From: Sulfuricurvum sp.
Lineage (GTDB): Bacteria; Campylobacterota; Campylobacteria; Campylobacterales; Sulfurimonadaceae
Reading direction: 5' to 3'
Assembly (NCBI GenBank): GCA_024762585.1
Contig: JANTHE010000008.1
Coordinates: 1 to 32,801 of the forward strand
Length of the DNA stretch: 32,801 bases
In this document: in pieces, positions 20,625 to 28,610 of the stretch
Layout: each line of letters begins with the position of its first letter
Numbering within the stretch: the stretch's first letter is position 1
Translations under genes and position numbers: made by a program
The notes under the pieces: generated by a model
Database searches by the model: none
What the model was told of the DNA's origin: nothing
The model's input: only the letters and a program-made list of their open reading frames with translations

Positions 20625-20651
20625 AAACGCCAAAGGGGGAAAGCCCCTCTA
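20625..20651 (-). terminator. Terminator-like hairpin after arginine kinase, relic of the dispersed repeat
   Basis: The minus strand folds AGAGGGG (20650-20644) with CCCCUUU (20638-20632) around CUUUC, and GGCGUUUU follows. The arginine kinase stop codon is partly in the stem. The plus strand, CGCCAAAGGGGGAAAGCCCCTCT, strongly resembles the first hairpin of the repeats at 22774 and 27705, so this may be a degenerate or captured copy acting as a terminator between convergent operons. Confidence 0.5.
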
Positions 20652-21677
20652 AAGCGCCTTCTCCGCCGCGATCAGCGCACTCACGCCGTCATACATATCC
20701 TGCACCGCCTGCACCTCGGTGATGCCCAGGCGGCGGCGGTTGCTGATGTCATAGACGCCGCCTTCACTTTCGCTGTGCTCGCCGTGGATGCCGCGAATCT
20801 GCAGGTGGTACTTCTCCGTAATCGCCTTGAACGCATCCATATCCCGGGCCAGTTTCGGCAGCGCGATATGCACGCTCGCGCGCATCGCCGTTCCCAGGTT
20901 GGTCGGACAGCTGGTGATGTAGCCCAGATGCTCCGAGAAGGCAAACGGCACTTTCTCGCCGATGGCATTGATGGCGGTGACCAGACGCGTAAAGACCTCT
21001 TTGATATCGCCACCAGGCTGCATCGAGATGATGCGCATCTCATCCTCTTCATTCACCCAGACCAGGAAGGTCTTGTCATGGTTGTGATAGATCCCCCGCC
21101 CTTCGGGCCAGTCGCGGTTGAGTCCTGCAGCTTCCAGGAAACGATCCCCCTCTTTAAAGAGGAAATGGTCTTTGATGAGCTGCTCCTGCACACTTTTGCT
21201 CATGCCCAATAGCGGGTAATAGGTGCCCTCCAGAGCTCCGGTCATGGACTCCAAACCTTCAACCACGCTTGCTTCGACCTCGTTGCGCTGCGACTTGGAA
21301 ATGGCGGGCCCCAACGGCAGTCCGGCGACGTTGCGCCCCACACGAATACGCGTAGAAAGGATAAACTCACCCTCCGGATCGGGGTTGGGAGCATTGAGAT
21401 GATCGGGATTGAGATCACTTTGATGCTTTTGCTCTTTGCCAAACCCGTGATACGCCTCGATGATCGGGTCGAACAGCGGGGCGAAAAGCGTATAGGACTC
21501 CTCGTCACCCGCATAGACACCGATTCCGCTGTCGGGATTGACGACACCGGAATTGATCGCCTGCTCCAGGGTAAAACCGTTGGCGGTCTTTTTGTCTTTG
21601 AGTGCTTCGAACACCTCGGGGGTTAGAAAACGGCACAGCATAGAGGTGCAGTCGCTTGGGAATGTCGGGTAAGTCAT
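20649..21677 (-). CDS. Arginine kinase (ATP:guanidino phosphotransferase, phosphagen kinase)
   Basis: The 342-aa product is a full-length phosphagen kinase. It transfers phosphate reversibly between ATP and arginine, buffering ATP as phosphoarginine. Every key site known from Limulus arginine kinase is present: specificity loop PDSGIGVYAGDEESY (S50-Y55), nucleotide-binding STRIRVGRN, NEEDEMRIISMQ with catalytic E211 and R215, SCPTNLGTAMRASVH with the reactive C257, and RGIHGEHSESEGG with catalytic E300. The N-terminal helical domain is also present, so this is not the bacterial McsB type, which lacks it. ATG 21677 has AAGGAG upstream and overlaps the small ORF before it. It ends the argB operon, which supplies its substrate pathway. 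Phosphagen kinases are patchy in bacteria and thought to be acquired from animals or protists; a few are known in sulfur-oxidising Campylobacterota. Confidence 0.95.
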   Translation of the reverse strand: MTYPTFPSDCTSMLCRFLTPEVFEALKDKKTANGFTLEQAINSGVVNPDSGIGVYAGDEESYTLFAPLFDPIIEAYHGFGKEQKHQSDLNPDHLNAPNPDPEGEFILSTRIRVGRNVAGLPLGPAISKSQRNEVEASVVEGLESMTGALEGTYYPLLGMSKSVQEQLIKDHFLFKEGDRFLEAAGLNRDWPEGRGIYHNHDKTFLVWVNEEDEMRIISMQPGGDIKEVFTRLVTAINAIGEKVPFAFSEHLGYITSCPTNLGTAMRASVHIALPKLARDMDAFKAITEKYHLQIRGIHGEHSESEGGVYDISNRRRLGITEVQAVQDMYDGVSALIAAEKAL

Positions 21678-22773: not shown

Positions 22774-22866
22774 CCTTACACGCCAAAGGAGCGAAGCCCC
22801 TTTGGCTACGTTAACACTGGGTTTGCTTCGGCAGCAGGCCCACGCGCCCTTGGCGCTTTTGATTAT
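22774..22866. repeat. Intercistronic hairpin repeat, copy 1
   Basis: A 93-bp unit. Hairpin A (22782-22806): GCCAAAGGAGC, loop GAA, GCCCCTTTGGC, 11 bp with one G.U in the minus-strand RNA. A middle segment CTACGTTAACACTGGGTTTG leads to a TTCG mini-loop, then hairpin B (22844-22856): GCGCC, CTT, GGCGC, then TTTT. It lies directly upstream of argB: hairpin A ends about 8 nt before the argB ribosome-binding site. It differs from copy 5 at only a few positions. Confidence 0.85.
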
Positions 22867-23006
22867 CCTTACACGTCAAAGGAGCGAAGCCCCTTTGACT
22901 GCGCTAACGCTGAGTTCTCCAACGACGCGTCATTTAGTGCCTCACTTGCACTGCCCTTTAGCGCTTGTCGGCGGAGAGCCCGCGCGCCCTTGGCGCTTTT
23001 GGTTAT
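22867..23006. repeat. Intercistronic hairpin repeat, copy 2 (long arm)
   Basis: A 140-bp unit in tandem with copy 1. Hairpin A is GTCAAAGGAGC/GCCCCTTTGAC: the outer C-G of copy 1 is T-A here, a compensatory pair. The middle is longer (about 47 bp inserted) and is bounded by TTCTCC and GGAGAG, which can pair. It ends with the same GCGCC-CTT-GGCGC-TTTT hairpin B. Confidence 0.85.
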
Positions 23007-23051
23007 CCTTACACGTCAAAGGAGCGAAGCCCCTTTGACTGCACTAACGCC
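23007..23051. repeat. Intercistronic hairpin repeat, copy 3 (truncated)
   Basis: Only the first 45 bp, hairpin A of the copy 2 type (T-A outer pair) plus CTGCACTAACGCC, ending about 10 bp from the stop codon of the CxxC-protein gene. The middle arm and hairpin B are missing. Confidence 0.8.
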
Positions 23052-23060
23052 ATTCACGTA

Positions 23061-25825: not shown

Positions 25826-27688
25826 TCACTGTGAAACGGGAAGACGAAACTCAAAACAGGCCCCTTCGCCATCGTTATGTGCCGTAATGGTGCCGCGCAT
25901 CTTCTGCGTGATGATCAGATGCGTCATATACAGGCCAATGCCGGTGCCCTCAATCTTAGTACTCACATGCGGCTCGAAAAGAGTCGGCAGAACCACCGGA
26001 TCGATCCCGCCGCCGTTGTCGCAAAAGCGCAGTAGATAGCCTGTCCCCTCTTCACTCAGCGTGATGCGGATTCGGCGTGTATCCCCGCCATGTTCCACCA
26101 GTGCTTCGCGCGCGTTGTTGAAGAGGTTCAGCATCGCCTGCGCGAACTCTCCCTCCACTCCCTCGCAGCGCGCCTCGCGCTGCGGCAGGTTCAGTTGCAC
26201 GTCGATATGGTGATAGGTGAGCGCCCCGCGCACGATATTGTAGGCCTGTTCGATCGGCGCGCGCAGATCGAACACCGTGTCGGTACGCTGCGGCGAGAAG
26301 AACCGCCTGAAATCGTCGATGGTCTGCGACATGAACTTGATCTGGGCATTCCCCTGAGTCAGGCGCTCTTGCAAATAGGCGTCATCGAGCTCTCCAAACG
26401 CCTGCGCGGACTCCAGATTCATAAAGATGCCGCCAAGCTGCGCGAGCGGCTGGCGCCACTGATGCGCGATGTAGCTCACCATCTCCCCCATCGACGCCAG
26501 ACGCGACTGCTGCAGCAGCAGGTACTCCTGCTCCTGCCGCAGCCGCGCCTCTTCGCGCACTTCGCGCCGCAGCTCCTCCTTGACCGCTTCATGCTCGGAG
26601 ACGTCGCGGCCGATCAGCTTGAGGTAGCGGCTGTTGATATTGACCGACTGGGTGCCGGAAAATTCGTAACGGCGTTCACCGATGATGCAGGAAAACCCCT
26701 CCAGCACGCCCTCCGCTTCGAACCGTATGTGGATTTGCTCCCAGGCATCGCCAAACAGCCTGGAGGGGTGACGCTCCAGCATCGCGGCGCCGAAGGTATC
26801 GAGTGAACGGCGGTTCATCCAGTGCACTGTCTGCTGCTCGGGCATGTCGAAAATCTCGATGATCGCTTCGGGCAGCAGGTCCATGATCTCGCGCGCATGG
26901 CGCAGTTTGATCTGCAGCATCCGCGCGACATTGCCCTTGACGTGCGTGAAAATATCGCGATCGGTCAGCAGCGCGTAGGCCCGCCCCTCCTGCGTCACCA
27001 CCACGCGGCGGATATGGCGCTGTTTCATCAGCGCGATCACCTCCGTCACGCTTGCCTGTGCATCGACCGTAATGACCGGTGAAGACATCCGGTCCCCGAT
27101 ACGCTCCTCGAGCCTGCCGTGCCGAAACCCCTCGTCGAGGAGATCCTGCTCGGTCAAAATGCCAACGACTCGGTGTGCCTCTGTGACGACGACCGATCCG
27201 ATCCGCCGCTGCCGCATCAGGTGCAGCGCATCGGCCGTAAACGCTTCGGGCGGAAGGGTGCCCAGCTGCGGATTCGGTCCCAGCAGGTCCGCCACGCGCA
27301 GGTCGACTTTGTAGACATCCTCTTCGAGAAAATCGAACAGGTCCTCTTGTAGCACGACTCCGGCAAACCGCCCGCGCGCGTCGACGAGCACCAGCCGCCG
27401 GATGCTGTTGGTCACAATGAGGTCGAACGCCGCCTCCACCGGACGGTCTTTCATGGCCGAGATCACCGGGCGGCTGGCGAATTCCAGCGCCCCGCGCTCA
27501 TGTTCCGCGCCCTCGTCCAGCGCGCCGAGAATCCGCCCCTCGGTGATGACGCCAACCGGAAAATCGTCCTCCAGCAGCACCGCACAGCCGTGGCGGTTTT
27601 GCAGCATGAGCGCCATCGCCTCGCGCAGTGTCGCCCCCGCATCCAGCGCAAAGCCGTCGCAATGTGCAATCCCGATCAGGGCGCTCAT
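25826..27688 (-). CDS. Sensor histidine kinase with four N-terminal CBS domains
   Basis: The 620-aa soluble protein has no membrane segment. Four CBS motifs occupy about residues 1-252 (for example AVLLEDDFPVGVITEGRILG, GSVVVTEAHRVVGILTEQDL and RRVVVTQEGRAYALLTDRDI). A PAS-like region follows (about 265-365), then a coiled coil. The H-box is SYIAHQWRQPLAQLGG with H409. The ATPase domain has N524/N525 (NLFNNAREAL), DNGGGI (D557) and GTGIGLYMTH. CBS pairs bind AMP, ADP, ATP or SAM in other proteins, so this kinase may read energy state. The partner is presumably the response regulator just upstream. AAGGAG at the start lies immediately after a repeat hairpin. Confidence 0.92.
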   Translation of the reverse strand: MSALIGIAHCDGFALDAGATLREAMALMLQNRHGCAVLLEDDFPVGVITEGRILGALDEGAEHERGALEFASRPVISAMKDRPVEAAFDLIVTNSIRRLVLVDARGRFAGVVLQEDLFDFLEEDVYKVDLRVADLLGPNPQLGTLPPEAFTADALHLMRQRRIGSVVVTEAHRVVGILTEQDLLDEGFRHGRLEERIGDRMSSPVITVDAQASVTEVIALMKQRHIRRVVVTQEGRAYALLTDRDIFTHVKGNVARMLQIKLRHAREIMDLLPEAIIEIFDMPEQQTVHWMNRRSLDTFGAAMLERHPSRLFGDAWEQIHIRFEAEGVLEGFSCIIGERRYEFSGTQSVNINSRYLKLIGRDVSEHEAVKEELRREVREEARLRQEQEYLLLQQSRLASMGEMVSYIAHQWRQPLAQLGGIFMNLESAQAFGELDDAYLQERLTQGNAQIKFMSQTIDDFRRFFSPQRTDTVFDLRAPIEQAYNIVRGALTYHHIDVQLNLPQREARCEGVEGEFAQAMLNLFNNAREALVEHGGDTRRIRITLSEEGTGYLLRFCDNGGGIDPVVLPTLFEPHVSTKIEGTGIGLYMTHLIITQKMRGTITAHNDGEGACFEFRLPVSQ

Positions 27689-27704: not shown

Positions 27705-27820
27705 TACGCCAAAGGAGCAAAGCCCCTCTGGCTGCGCTAACGCTGTGTTCTCCTCGGCGGAGGGCGCCCTGAAAGAAGTGCCCTTGGGGTGCCCACGCGC
27801 CCTTGGCGCTTTTGATTGAC
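27705..27820. repeat. Intercistronic hairpin repeat, copy 4
   Basis: A 116-bp unit. Hairpin A (27708-27732): GCCAAAGGAGC, loop AAA, GCCCCTCTGGC; the T-to-C change keeps pairing as G.U only in the minus-strand RNA. The middle arm contains TCTCC and GGAGG that can pair around CGGC, then sequence unlike the other copies. It ends with hairpin B GCGCC-CTT-GGCGC-TTTT. It lies directly before the ribosome-binding site of the histidine kinase gene. Confidence 0.85.
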
Positions 27821-27911
27821 TTTACACGCCAAAGGAGCAAAGCCCCTCTGGCTACGTTAACACTGGGTTTGCTTCGGCAGCAGGCCCGCGCGCCCTTGGC
27901 GCTTTTAAATA
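27821..27911. repeat. Intercistronic hairpin repeat, copy 5
   Basis: A 91-bp unit in tandem with copy 4 and nearly identical to copy 1, including the TTAACACTGGGTTTGC and TTCG parts and hairpin B. Hairpin A (27828-27852) has loop AAA and the CTCTGGC right arm. It ends 7 bp from the response regulator stop codon. Confidence 0.85.
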
Positions 27912-27917
27912 CTTTCA

Positions 27918-28610
27918 TTATGCGGTTCCCAGTCGGTAGCCGATGCCGCTGACGCTTTGGATGATGCCCGGATAGGTTTTTTTGCGCAGGTTTTTGATCT
28001 GCGCGCGTACGGCGTCGCGCGTCATCGGCGCTTCGGGCCAGATCTCGTACTGAATCACCTCATAGGTCAGCGTACGTGCAGGGTGGGCAAGGAAAAACTC
28101 CAGCAACTCCATCTCCTTGCGCCGCAGCAGCACCTCCGTACCACCATTGAGCAGGCATTTTCGCTCCTGATCGTACCGAAACCCCTCTCCGAGCTCTACG
28201 AGTTTTGGAAAACGCGTCTGCAGCTCCTGCGCGGCTTTTTGAAGCGCTTCGAGCAGCTCTTCGCCGGTGACGGGTTTGACCAGGTAGCGCGTCAGCTCCA
28301 GCTCCACCGCCTTGAGCAAAAAAGGGCGGTCGGTGTAGGCGGTCATCATGATGATGCGGATGTCACCATCTTCGCCGCGAATCCGCTCCGCCAGGCTCAG
28401 CCCGTCCATCCCCGGCAGGTTCAGATCGAGCAGCGCAATGTCGAACGTCTCCGTTTTCAGTGCCTGAAGCGCCGCCTCCGCGCTGTCCAAAGCCTGCATA
28501 TCGGTAAAAAAGCGCCCCAGAAACTCGCCGAGCTCCTCGCGTACCGCCGTTTCGTCCTCGACATAAAGCAGCCGAAACGGCGACAGCAGTGCCCGCACCT
28601 CTTTCATCAT
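27918..28610 (-). CDS. OmpR/PhoB-type response regulator
   Basis: The 230-aa product has a receiver domain (about 12-120) with acidic pocket E18/D19, phosphoacceptor D62 (ALLDLNLPGMDG), T90 and K112 (LVKPVTG). A winged-helix DNA-binding domain follows (about 140-228): EVLLRRKEMELLEFFLAHPA, YEVIQYEIWP, RAQIKNLRKK and SVSGIGYRLG. It is the likely partner of the CBS-histidine kinase, although two repeat units separate the genes. Its ATG at 28610 overlaps the dioxygenase stop by 4 bp (ATGA), an unusual coupling. A second ATG one codon later is equally possible. Confidence 0.93.
   Translation of the reverse strand: MMKEVRALLSPFRLLYVEDETAVREELGEFLGRFFTDMQALDSAEAALQALKTETFDIALLDLNLPGMDGLSLAERIRGEDGDIRIIMMTAYTDRPFLLKAVELELTRYLVKPVTGEELLEALQKAAQELQTRFPKLVELGEGFRYDQERKCLLNGGTEVLLRRKEMELLEFFLAHPARTLTYEVIQYEIWPEAPMTRDAVRAQIKNLRKKTYPGIIQSVSGIGYRLGTA

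Follow-up and report, generated by a model that had tools for sequence, protein, structure and literature searches.

Why would a short repeat lying between a response regulator gene and a histidine kinase gene carry a hairpin whose substitutions preserve pairing on one DNA strand and disrupt it on the other, and does such an asymmetry mean that the repeat acts within the mRNA of its neighbors? The locus that raises this question lies in a Sulfuricurvum sp. contig, the whole analyzed stretch of which (32,801 nucleotides) is here called the window. The first-pass annotation had proposed that the element works as RNA read in the same direction as the surrounding genes. Strand-specific structure need not imply action in the mRNA of neighboring genes, two ideas that are often merged, and this family offers a natural experiment on the point: there are many copies, their gene orientation is near-even, one hairpin (A) is wobble-biased, and an unbiased hairpin serves as an internal control. 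We conclude that the two copies at the locus, copies 4 and 5, are probably a non-autonomous, REP-like mobile repeat of ~85 nt, one strand of which (R, the minus strand here) would act as a folded single strand.

Our observations on copies 4 and 5 themselves are held with high confidence (Table 1). As first described, the gap between the two genes carries two copies of the repeat (27706-27906), sense to both genes, and all copies in the window are sense to its genes. The stop codon of the regulator lies ~11 nt upstream of copy 5, 17 nt separate the end of copy 4 from the kinase start codon, and the copy 4 terminus directly precedes the kinase ribosome-binding site. From this arrangement, a regulator-kinase mRNA, if the genes are co-transcribed, would hold two R-folded copies before that ribosome-binding site, and an influence on kinase expression is possible. 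A sigma-70-like promoter was sought in the gap and none was found, so the idea that the element supplies its own promoter was rejected. On the plus strand the T-run after each hairpin B scores as terminator-like, directed against the genes. At the DNA level, sequences in the genus are too diverged for a clear orthologue of the intergenic site to be recognized.

Table 1. Positions of the repeat copies, their parts and the adjoining genes in the window.
Feature	Position	Strand	Remarks
Copy 1, complete element	22780..22860	-	Ends immediately upstream of argB
Copy 2, with ~47-nt insert in hairpin M loop	22873..23000	-	83.5 bits
Copy 3, truncated to hairpin A and core	23013..23055	-	38 bits
CBS-domain HATPase histidine kinase gene	25826..27688	-	Domain matches
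Copy 4, complete element with insert	27706..27813	-	Model R1, 74.8 bits
Copy 4, optional 25-nt insert ACCCCAAGGGCACTTCTTTCAGGGC	27766..27790	-	Between hairpins B and M
Copy 5, complete element	27826..27906	-	Minus-strand reading; model R1, 105 bits; R-orientation order: hairpin B, PK1/hairpin M, PK2/core, GTAG, hairpin A, CGT
Hairpin A, copy 5	27828..27852	-	Wobbles G27848·U27832 and G27844·U27836
GTAG tetranucleotide, copy 5	27852..27855	-	Family tally
Core, copy 5	27856..27869	-	AAC (27869-27867) with GTT (27861-27859), PK2; mini stem GT/AC
Hairpin M, copy 5 (TGCT GCCGA AGCA)	27870..27882	-	Covariation
PK1, copy 5	27876..27886	-	GGC (27886-27884) with GCC (27878-27876) of the M loop; covariation
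Hairpin B, copy 5 (GCGCC AAG GGCGC)	27890..27902	-	TTTT next on plus strand, terminator-like
OmpR-type response regulator gene	27918..28610	-	Response_reg and Trans_reg_C

Copy 4 differs in its tag, GCAG in place of GTAG, and in a 25-nt insert that the first-pass annotation does not describe; the insert has GGGC at either flank, and others resembling it are present in further copies. The remaining copies of the window, 1 to 3, are grouped at 22780-23055. Copies 1 and 5 share 96% identity over 85 nt, as their reported near-identity would have it, and a recent duplication of copies is plausible on that basis. Similarity within the family is far above chance (E ~1e-35 by blast), and the core pattern gave two matches where zero were expected. 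In the same window we also noted half of a degenerate hairpin A copy (CGCCAAAGGGGGAAAGCCCCTCT) at 20629-20650, between convergent genes, and an ATP:guanido phosphotransferase gene (PF00217/PF02807) at 20649-21677, near argB, in a Campylobacterota genome.

What, then, is conserved in the repeat? The conserved region runs from approximately AAGCGC to CGT, and the sequence beyond both limits is unrelated. Read along the R strand, the family consists of hairpin B, RGC, hairpin M with the loop GCYGA, AAC, the core AGYGTTARCG, GTAG, hairpin A with a TTT loop and an internal G·U, and CGT. Over ~165 copies the tag is GTAG in 143 and GCAG in 11. Hairpin A has 11 pairs, nine of which show double changes. 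Mutual information calculated from 167 copies with no structure supplied recovers stems B, M, A and the mini stem, and also yields two crossing pairings that correspond to the pseudoknots PK1 and PK2. The R-Y pair of PK1 (columns 33-43) is GC in 92 and AU in 64 of the 167 copies, and both states coexist inside one genome, while PK2 draws on about a dozen compensated copies. With the pseudoknots included, 97.7% of cells in the alignment (A4) are paired, compared to 31-46% with slid partners and 79.9% in shuffles, and there are 314 compensatory cells vs 87 in shuffles. In another genus, the second pseudoknot of a divergent tandem variant is formed, by inspection, of GCC and GGC. Covariation of this kind allows us to predict both hairpin A and hairpin M, along with the PK1 R-Y pair, with high confidence, and PK2 with moderate confidence; as modeled, PK1 would have loops of one, zero and two nt, which is feasible for a compact H-type fold.

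Optional modules are found within the element, namely in the linker between hairpins B and M (as in copy 4), the M loop (as in copy 2) and the loop of hairpin A, where they are flanked by TTT. Separately, small palindromic modules (TGTAGCGAAGCG...GACAAC; CAAGGAAACATCGC...CCCTTG) recur nested at the hairpin loops of the element (loci L016:1463-1600, L213:1000-1138, L209 and L210), looking as if small repeats insert into one another's loops.

The family extends well beyond the window. A covariance model (R1) built from 21 copies finds 39 copies in the host genome, where a 90-nt blast query had matched 29 places. The element is carried by 64 of 100 order-level relatives, with a maximum of 39 copies each, and by 23 of 47 genera; element-rich genomes have 20-40 copies, mostly single or head-to-tail. 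The exact core pattern, searched in one genome per species, matched 101 stretches, and the 80 named records among the matches listed, which include Sulfuricurvum, Sulfurovum, Sulfurimonas and Nitratifractor, are all Campylobacterota. A phage search gave no copies and the element is almost absent from phages and plasmids, the matches on mobile replicons being one viral contig and one Sulfurovum plasmid; carriage by phages or plasmids was therefore rejected. Rfam returned no match to the element at gathering score (only tRNAs) and none up to E = 1. We conclude with high confidence that these copies belong to a family of ~85-nt repeats dispersed through Campylobacterota chromosomes, one that annotators of these genomes could mask or annotate by covariance model. 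A divergent variant that lacks hairpin M forms a tandem array at L297:2567-3023 (genome G031), which has 6.1 copies with a period of 74 nt and 99% identity and ends just ahead of a gene start.

The central observation of the first-pass annotation concerned hairpin A and was borne out. The plus-strand T-to-C changes in its right arm in copies 4 and 5 give a G·U pair when the minus strand is read (G27848·U27832) and A·C when the plus strand is; the inner position at which all five copies have A opposite C likewise becomes G·U in the minus-strand reading (27844/27836 in copy 5). The T-to-C change counts once, because it is shared by inheritance between copies 4 and 5 and does not represent two independent events. 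Across the family the inner G·U is found in 145 of 166 copies, and, leaving this conserved internal wobble out of the tally, hairpin A of 167 copies has 114 G·U vs 13 A·C; collapsed per genome, position and pair type the ratio is 98:13 (p = 3e-17). Hairpin B has no bias (24:25 per genome), making it a fair but imperfect control given the poorer alignment there, and hairpin M has 10:5.

Does the asymmetry depend on the direction in which the neighboring genes are read? With genes called by a simple longest-ORF rule, the flanking context of the 167 aligned copies is sense to both neighbors in 40, antisense to both in 34, convergent in 27 and divergent in 14 (27, 17, 12 and 9, respectively, in a smaller set). 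The G·U:A·C ratios of hairpin A are 31:3 in sense, 20:2 in antisense, 19:3 in convergent and 6:3 in divergent contexts. This comparison, with 40 sense copies vs 34 antisense and an antisense bias that is equal, does not support the proposal that the element acts as an RNA transcribed along with its neighbors. Copies lying antisense as often as sense, with no strand bias in wobble pairs, had been named as the pattern that would speak against it; copies are indeed antisense nearly as often as sense, yet the wobble bias persists. Since antisense copies are as biased as sense ones, the constraint is a property of the element and not of a reading directed by its neighbors. Both the strand asymmetry of hairpin A and its independence from gene orientation are held with high confidence. 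They indicate that the R strand is functional, as RNA or single-stranded DNA, whatever the local transcription, and that some agent moving along with the element most likely selects this strand in single-stranded form. Either nucleic acid could be the form concerned because DNA hairpins also accommodate G·T better than A·C. Replication orientation was considered as a signature of single-stranded DNA, but the mild leading-strand bias of 155:93, taken from non-independent genomes with the terminus assumed opposite dnaA, could be explained by ordinary gene-strand bias and was rejected as such a signature.

These counts bear on two alternatives. The first is that the element is a cis-acting RNA of operons (an mRNA stabilizer, a processing site or a means of translation control) kept through sense transcription with its neighbors. 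The sense orientation of every window copy, the end of copy 4 immediately before the kinase ribosome-binding site, the RNA-like character of the pseudoknots and G·U bias, and inverted dimers immediately upstream of rRNA genes (16S in the host genome, 23S in another genus) are all in keeping with it. However, gene orientation is nearly even, antisense copies are equal in wobble bias and, as described below, sites are polymorphic between sister species, making this explanation quite unlikely, even if the mild sense and leading-strand biases (40:34; 155:93) leave room for some transcription-linked selection. Alternatively, could palindrome correction through template switching, together with strand-asymmetric mutation, mimic selection on structure? 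Template switching homogenizes inverted repeats, and at those pairs of stem A where wobbles are most frequent the G·U types fit a C-to-T change. Palindrome correction is nevertheless argued against because it would erase the internal G·U that the family retains, and the covariation of the pseudoknots does not amount to a simple palindrome. Similarly, a gene-strand mutation bias would flip sign between sense and antisense copies, whereas no flip was seen and hairpin B is unbiased. The wobble and covariation counts thus largely refute this second alternative, which we regard as highly improbable.

If a constraint travels with the element, does the element itself move? In collinear stretches shared among the sister genomes G004, G005 and G007, several copies are missing at the orthologous site in a sister genome, and whole units are either present or absent. 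The copy at 991741 of G004 is flanked by TGAA twice where G005 and G007 have one TGAA, and the copy at 1735493 of G004 is flanked by TTTA twice where G007 has it once. These are the only two clean empty sites, others bearing extra flanking sequence; the duplications are 4 nt in the two clean cases and ~6 nt, imperfect, in a third, and at the remaining sites none could be recovered. Both clean insertions fall on a stop codon that the duplication preserves (reading frame by inspection). The inserted unit carries 10 to ~38 nt of non-conserved sequence on its B side, and comparing this filler with the flanks of the other fetched copies gave no match, so its derivation from those flanks was rejected. 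Among tandem gene pairs, copies lie closer to gene 3' ends than to 5' ends (48:26, p = 0.014). From these site comparisons we propose, with moderate confidence, transposition with a 4-nt duplication.

A major question arising from these observations is what moves a GTAG-tagged, pseudoknotted repeat in complete genomes in which neither a Y1 transposase nor a reverse transcriptase was detected. GTAG-tagged REPs have been described in many phyla, and Sulfurovum sp. NBC37-1 is named with both GTAG and CGTC types (PMC3733652). Our element could accordingly be a classical GTAG REP family, moved as single-stranded DNA by a RAYT (Y1) transposase, its upstream pseudoknots being a family-specific extension. 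The prevalence of the tag, a palindrome with a conserved mismatch, positions close to the 3' ends of genes, inverted dimers in some cases and the GTAG REPs reported in Sulfurovum (PMC3733652) agree with such an origin. Against it, Y1_Tnp has no match in nine of 18 genomes with at least 20 copies, among them the complete genomes G005, G006, G007 and G035, which have 20-36 copies, and many genomes without the element among the 100 relatives do have Y1_Tnp. Where complete genomes have both, the nearest Y1 gene is 1.5 kb from an element in one and >13 kb away in five others, and Y1 genes in complete genomes are not flanked by the element. With no evident association over the 100 genomes, the RAYT link was rejected. 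Additionally, IS200/REP-type transposition is not expected to produce a 4-nt duplication. We therefore consider a RAYT-moved REP unlikely.

A second candidate mover is a DDE transposase, with the element a MITE of an insertion sequence whose enzyme makes 4-nt duplications and the folded strand incidental. The duplications themselves suit it, as do some host-genome copies enclosed by IS-like terminal inverted repeats. The flanks do not generally have terminal inverted repeats, however, and none occur at the clean insertions; the mean stem score of flanking inverted repeats is 9.3 vs 8.9 for mismatched flanks. A DDE MITE is consequently very unlikely. An outer closing stem was rejected similarly, since flanking inverted repeats are confined to a subset of the host genome and the family mean is near that of mismatched controls. 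The IS-like repeats (AAAGGGC[AG][CT]CTCTAATGCCATTAAG...) enclose several host copies (L006, L007, L009, L012 and L004) and are apparently a separate MITE. A retroelement or SINE-like reading was also set aside: a search for reverse transcriptase (RVT_1) gave no match in G004-G007, G022, G035, G053, G079 and G098, so that the enzyme was undetected in most complete element-bearing genomes tested, and supply from outside is possible. Our confidence in any named mobilizing enzyme is low.

How does the element compare with known systems? GTAG REPs and REPINs (Di Nocera 2013, PMC3733652) resemble our family in having an imperfect hairpin with GTAG at its foot, many G·T pairs, sub-families marked by compensatory changes, a location near gene 3' ends and some dimers and clusters; hairpin A alone may already appear in Figure 1 of the paper. 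Two traits of GTAG REPs were found here: a tetranucleotide (GTAG or GYAG/GTRG) at the foot of the palindrome and, in hairpin A, an imperfect palindrome of 20-40 nt with compensatory variation. In contrast, our unit is ~85 nt and has two pseudoknots as well as hairpins B and M ahead of GTAG, it is mostly single or head-to-tail with no flanked RAYT gene in the genomes tested, and it has 4-nt duplications at two insertion sites. Neither is the solo hairpin its unit: in five genomes nearly all sites with GTAG and the hairpin are full B-M-A elements, with one solo exception, in G005. REP elements are not known to have a conserved pseudoknotted part upstream of GTAG, and our unit is set apart from GTAG REPs by this part, by the rarity of hairpin-only sites and by Y1 genes that the repeat does not flank. 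The element is thus REP-like in outline and, on the features tested, falls outside the RAYT-mobilized REPs. Inverted dimers resembling REPINs or BIMEs were seen in rRNA operons, most copies being single or head-to-tail. Dimers with the shared centre CCAATCGCACTAGTGCGATGAG lie upstream of the host 16S rRNA (L025, G000:C69:7784-7936) and, in G035 (L293-L296), just before the 23S rRNA of both operons read, with model matches at four sites.

Other comparisons are more distant. CGTC-tagged REPs (PMC3733652) are likewise palindromic repeats reported in Sulfurovum for which no dedicated transposase was found, but the conserved end here is GTAG...CGT, and the stems and loops depart from the CGTC type, which is described with CCA tails and with AT as the first pairs. 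Bacterial MITEs with target duplications are also short, dispersed and non-coding, and 4-nt duplications occur at two sites here, whereas our element lacks general terminal inverted repeats and its structure is strongly strand-specific. The guide or bridge RNAs of transposon ends (omega RNA, IS110 bridge RNA) resemble our element in a fold that is compact, pseudoknotted and RNA-like and that ends sharply on the 3' side, but our element has no Rfam match and, as yet, no nuclease or transposase gene linked to it as a partner.

The explanation we favor, a mobile repeat recognized through its R strand, would work as follows. One fixed strand, as the sequences show, is kept foldable, with hairpin B, a first, compact H-type pseudoknot between RGC and the GCY loop of hairpin M, a second, small pseudoknot between AAC and GTT inside the core AGYGTTARCG, the GTAG tag, hairpin A with its conserved internal G·U, and CGT. 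Mobilizing machinery would recognize this folded strand, as for GTAG-tagged REP elements, and, if so, the strand constraint would follow the element and not the neighboring genes. Copies may survive preferentially at gene ends, and sense copies within operons, as between the regulator and the kinase, would add stable mRNA hairpins as a by-product. More tentatively, and with considerable doubt, the family may represent a phylum-wide class of element in which the unit is a pseudoknotted strand, the enzyme is neither Y1/HUH nor a reverse transcriptase, and insertion takes place at gene ends with 4-nt duplications. Copies next to tRNA genes (L008, L015, L021 and L032) are antisense, with hairpin A toward the 3' end of the tRNA at a distance of ~10-15 nt.
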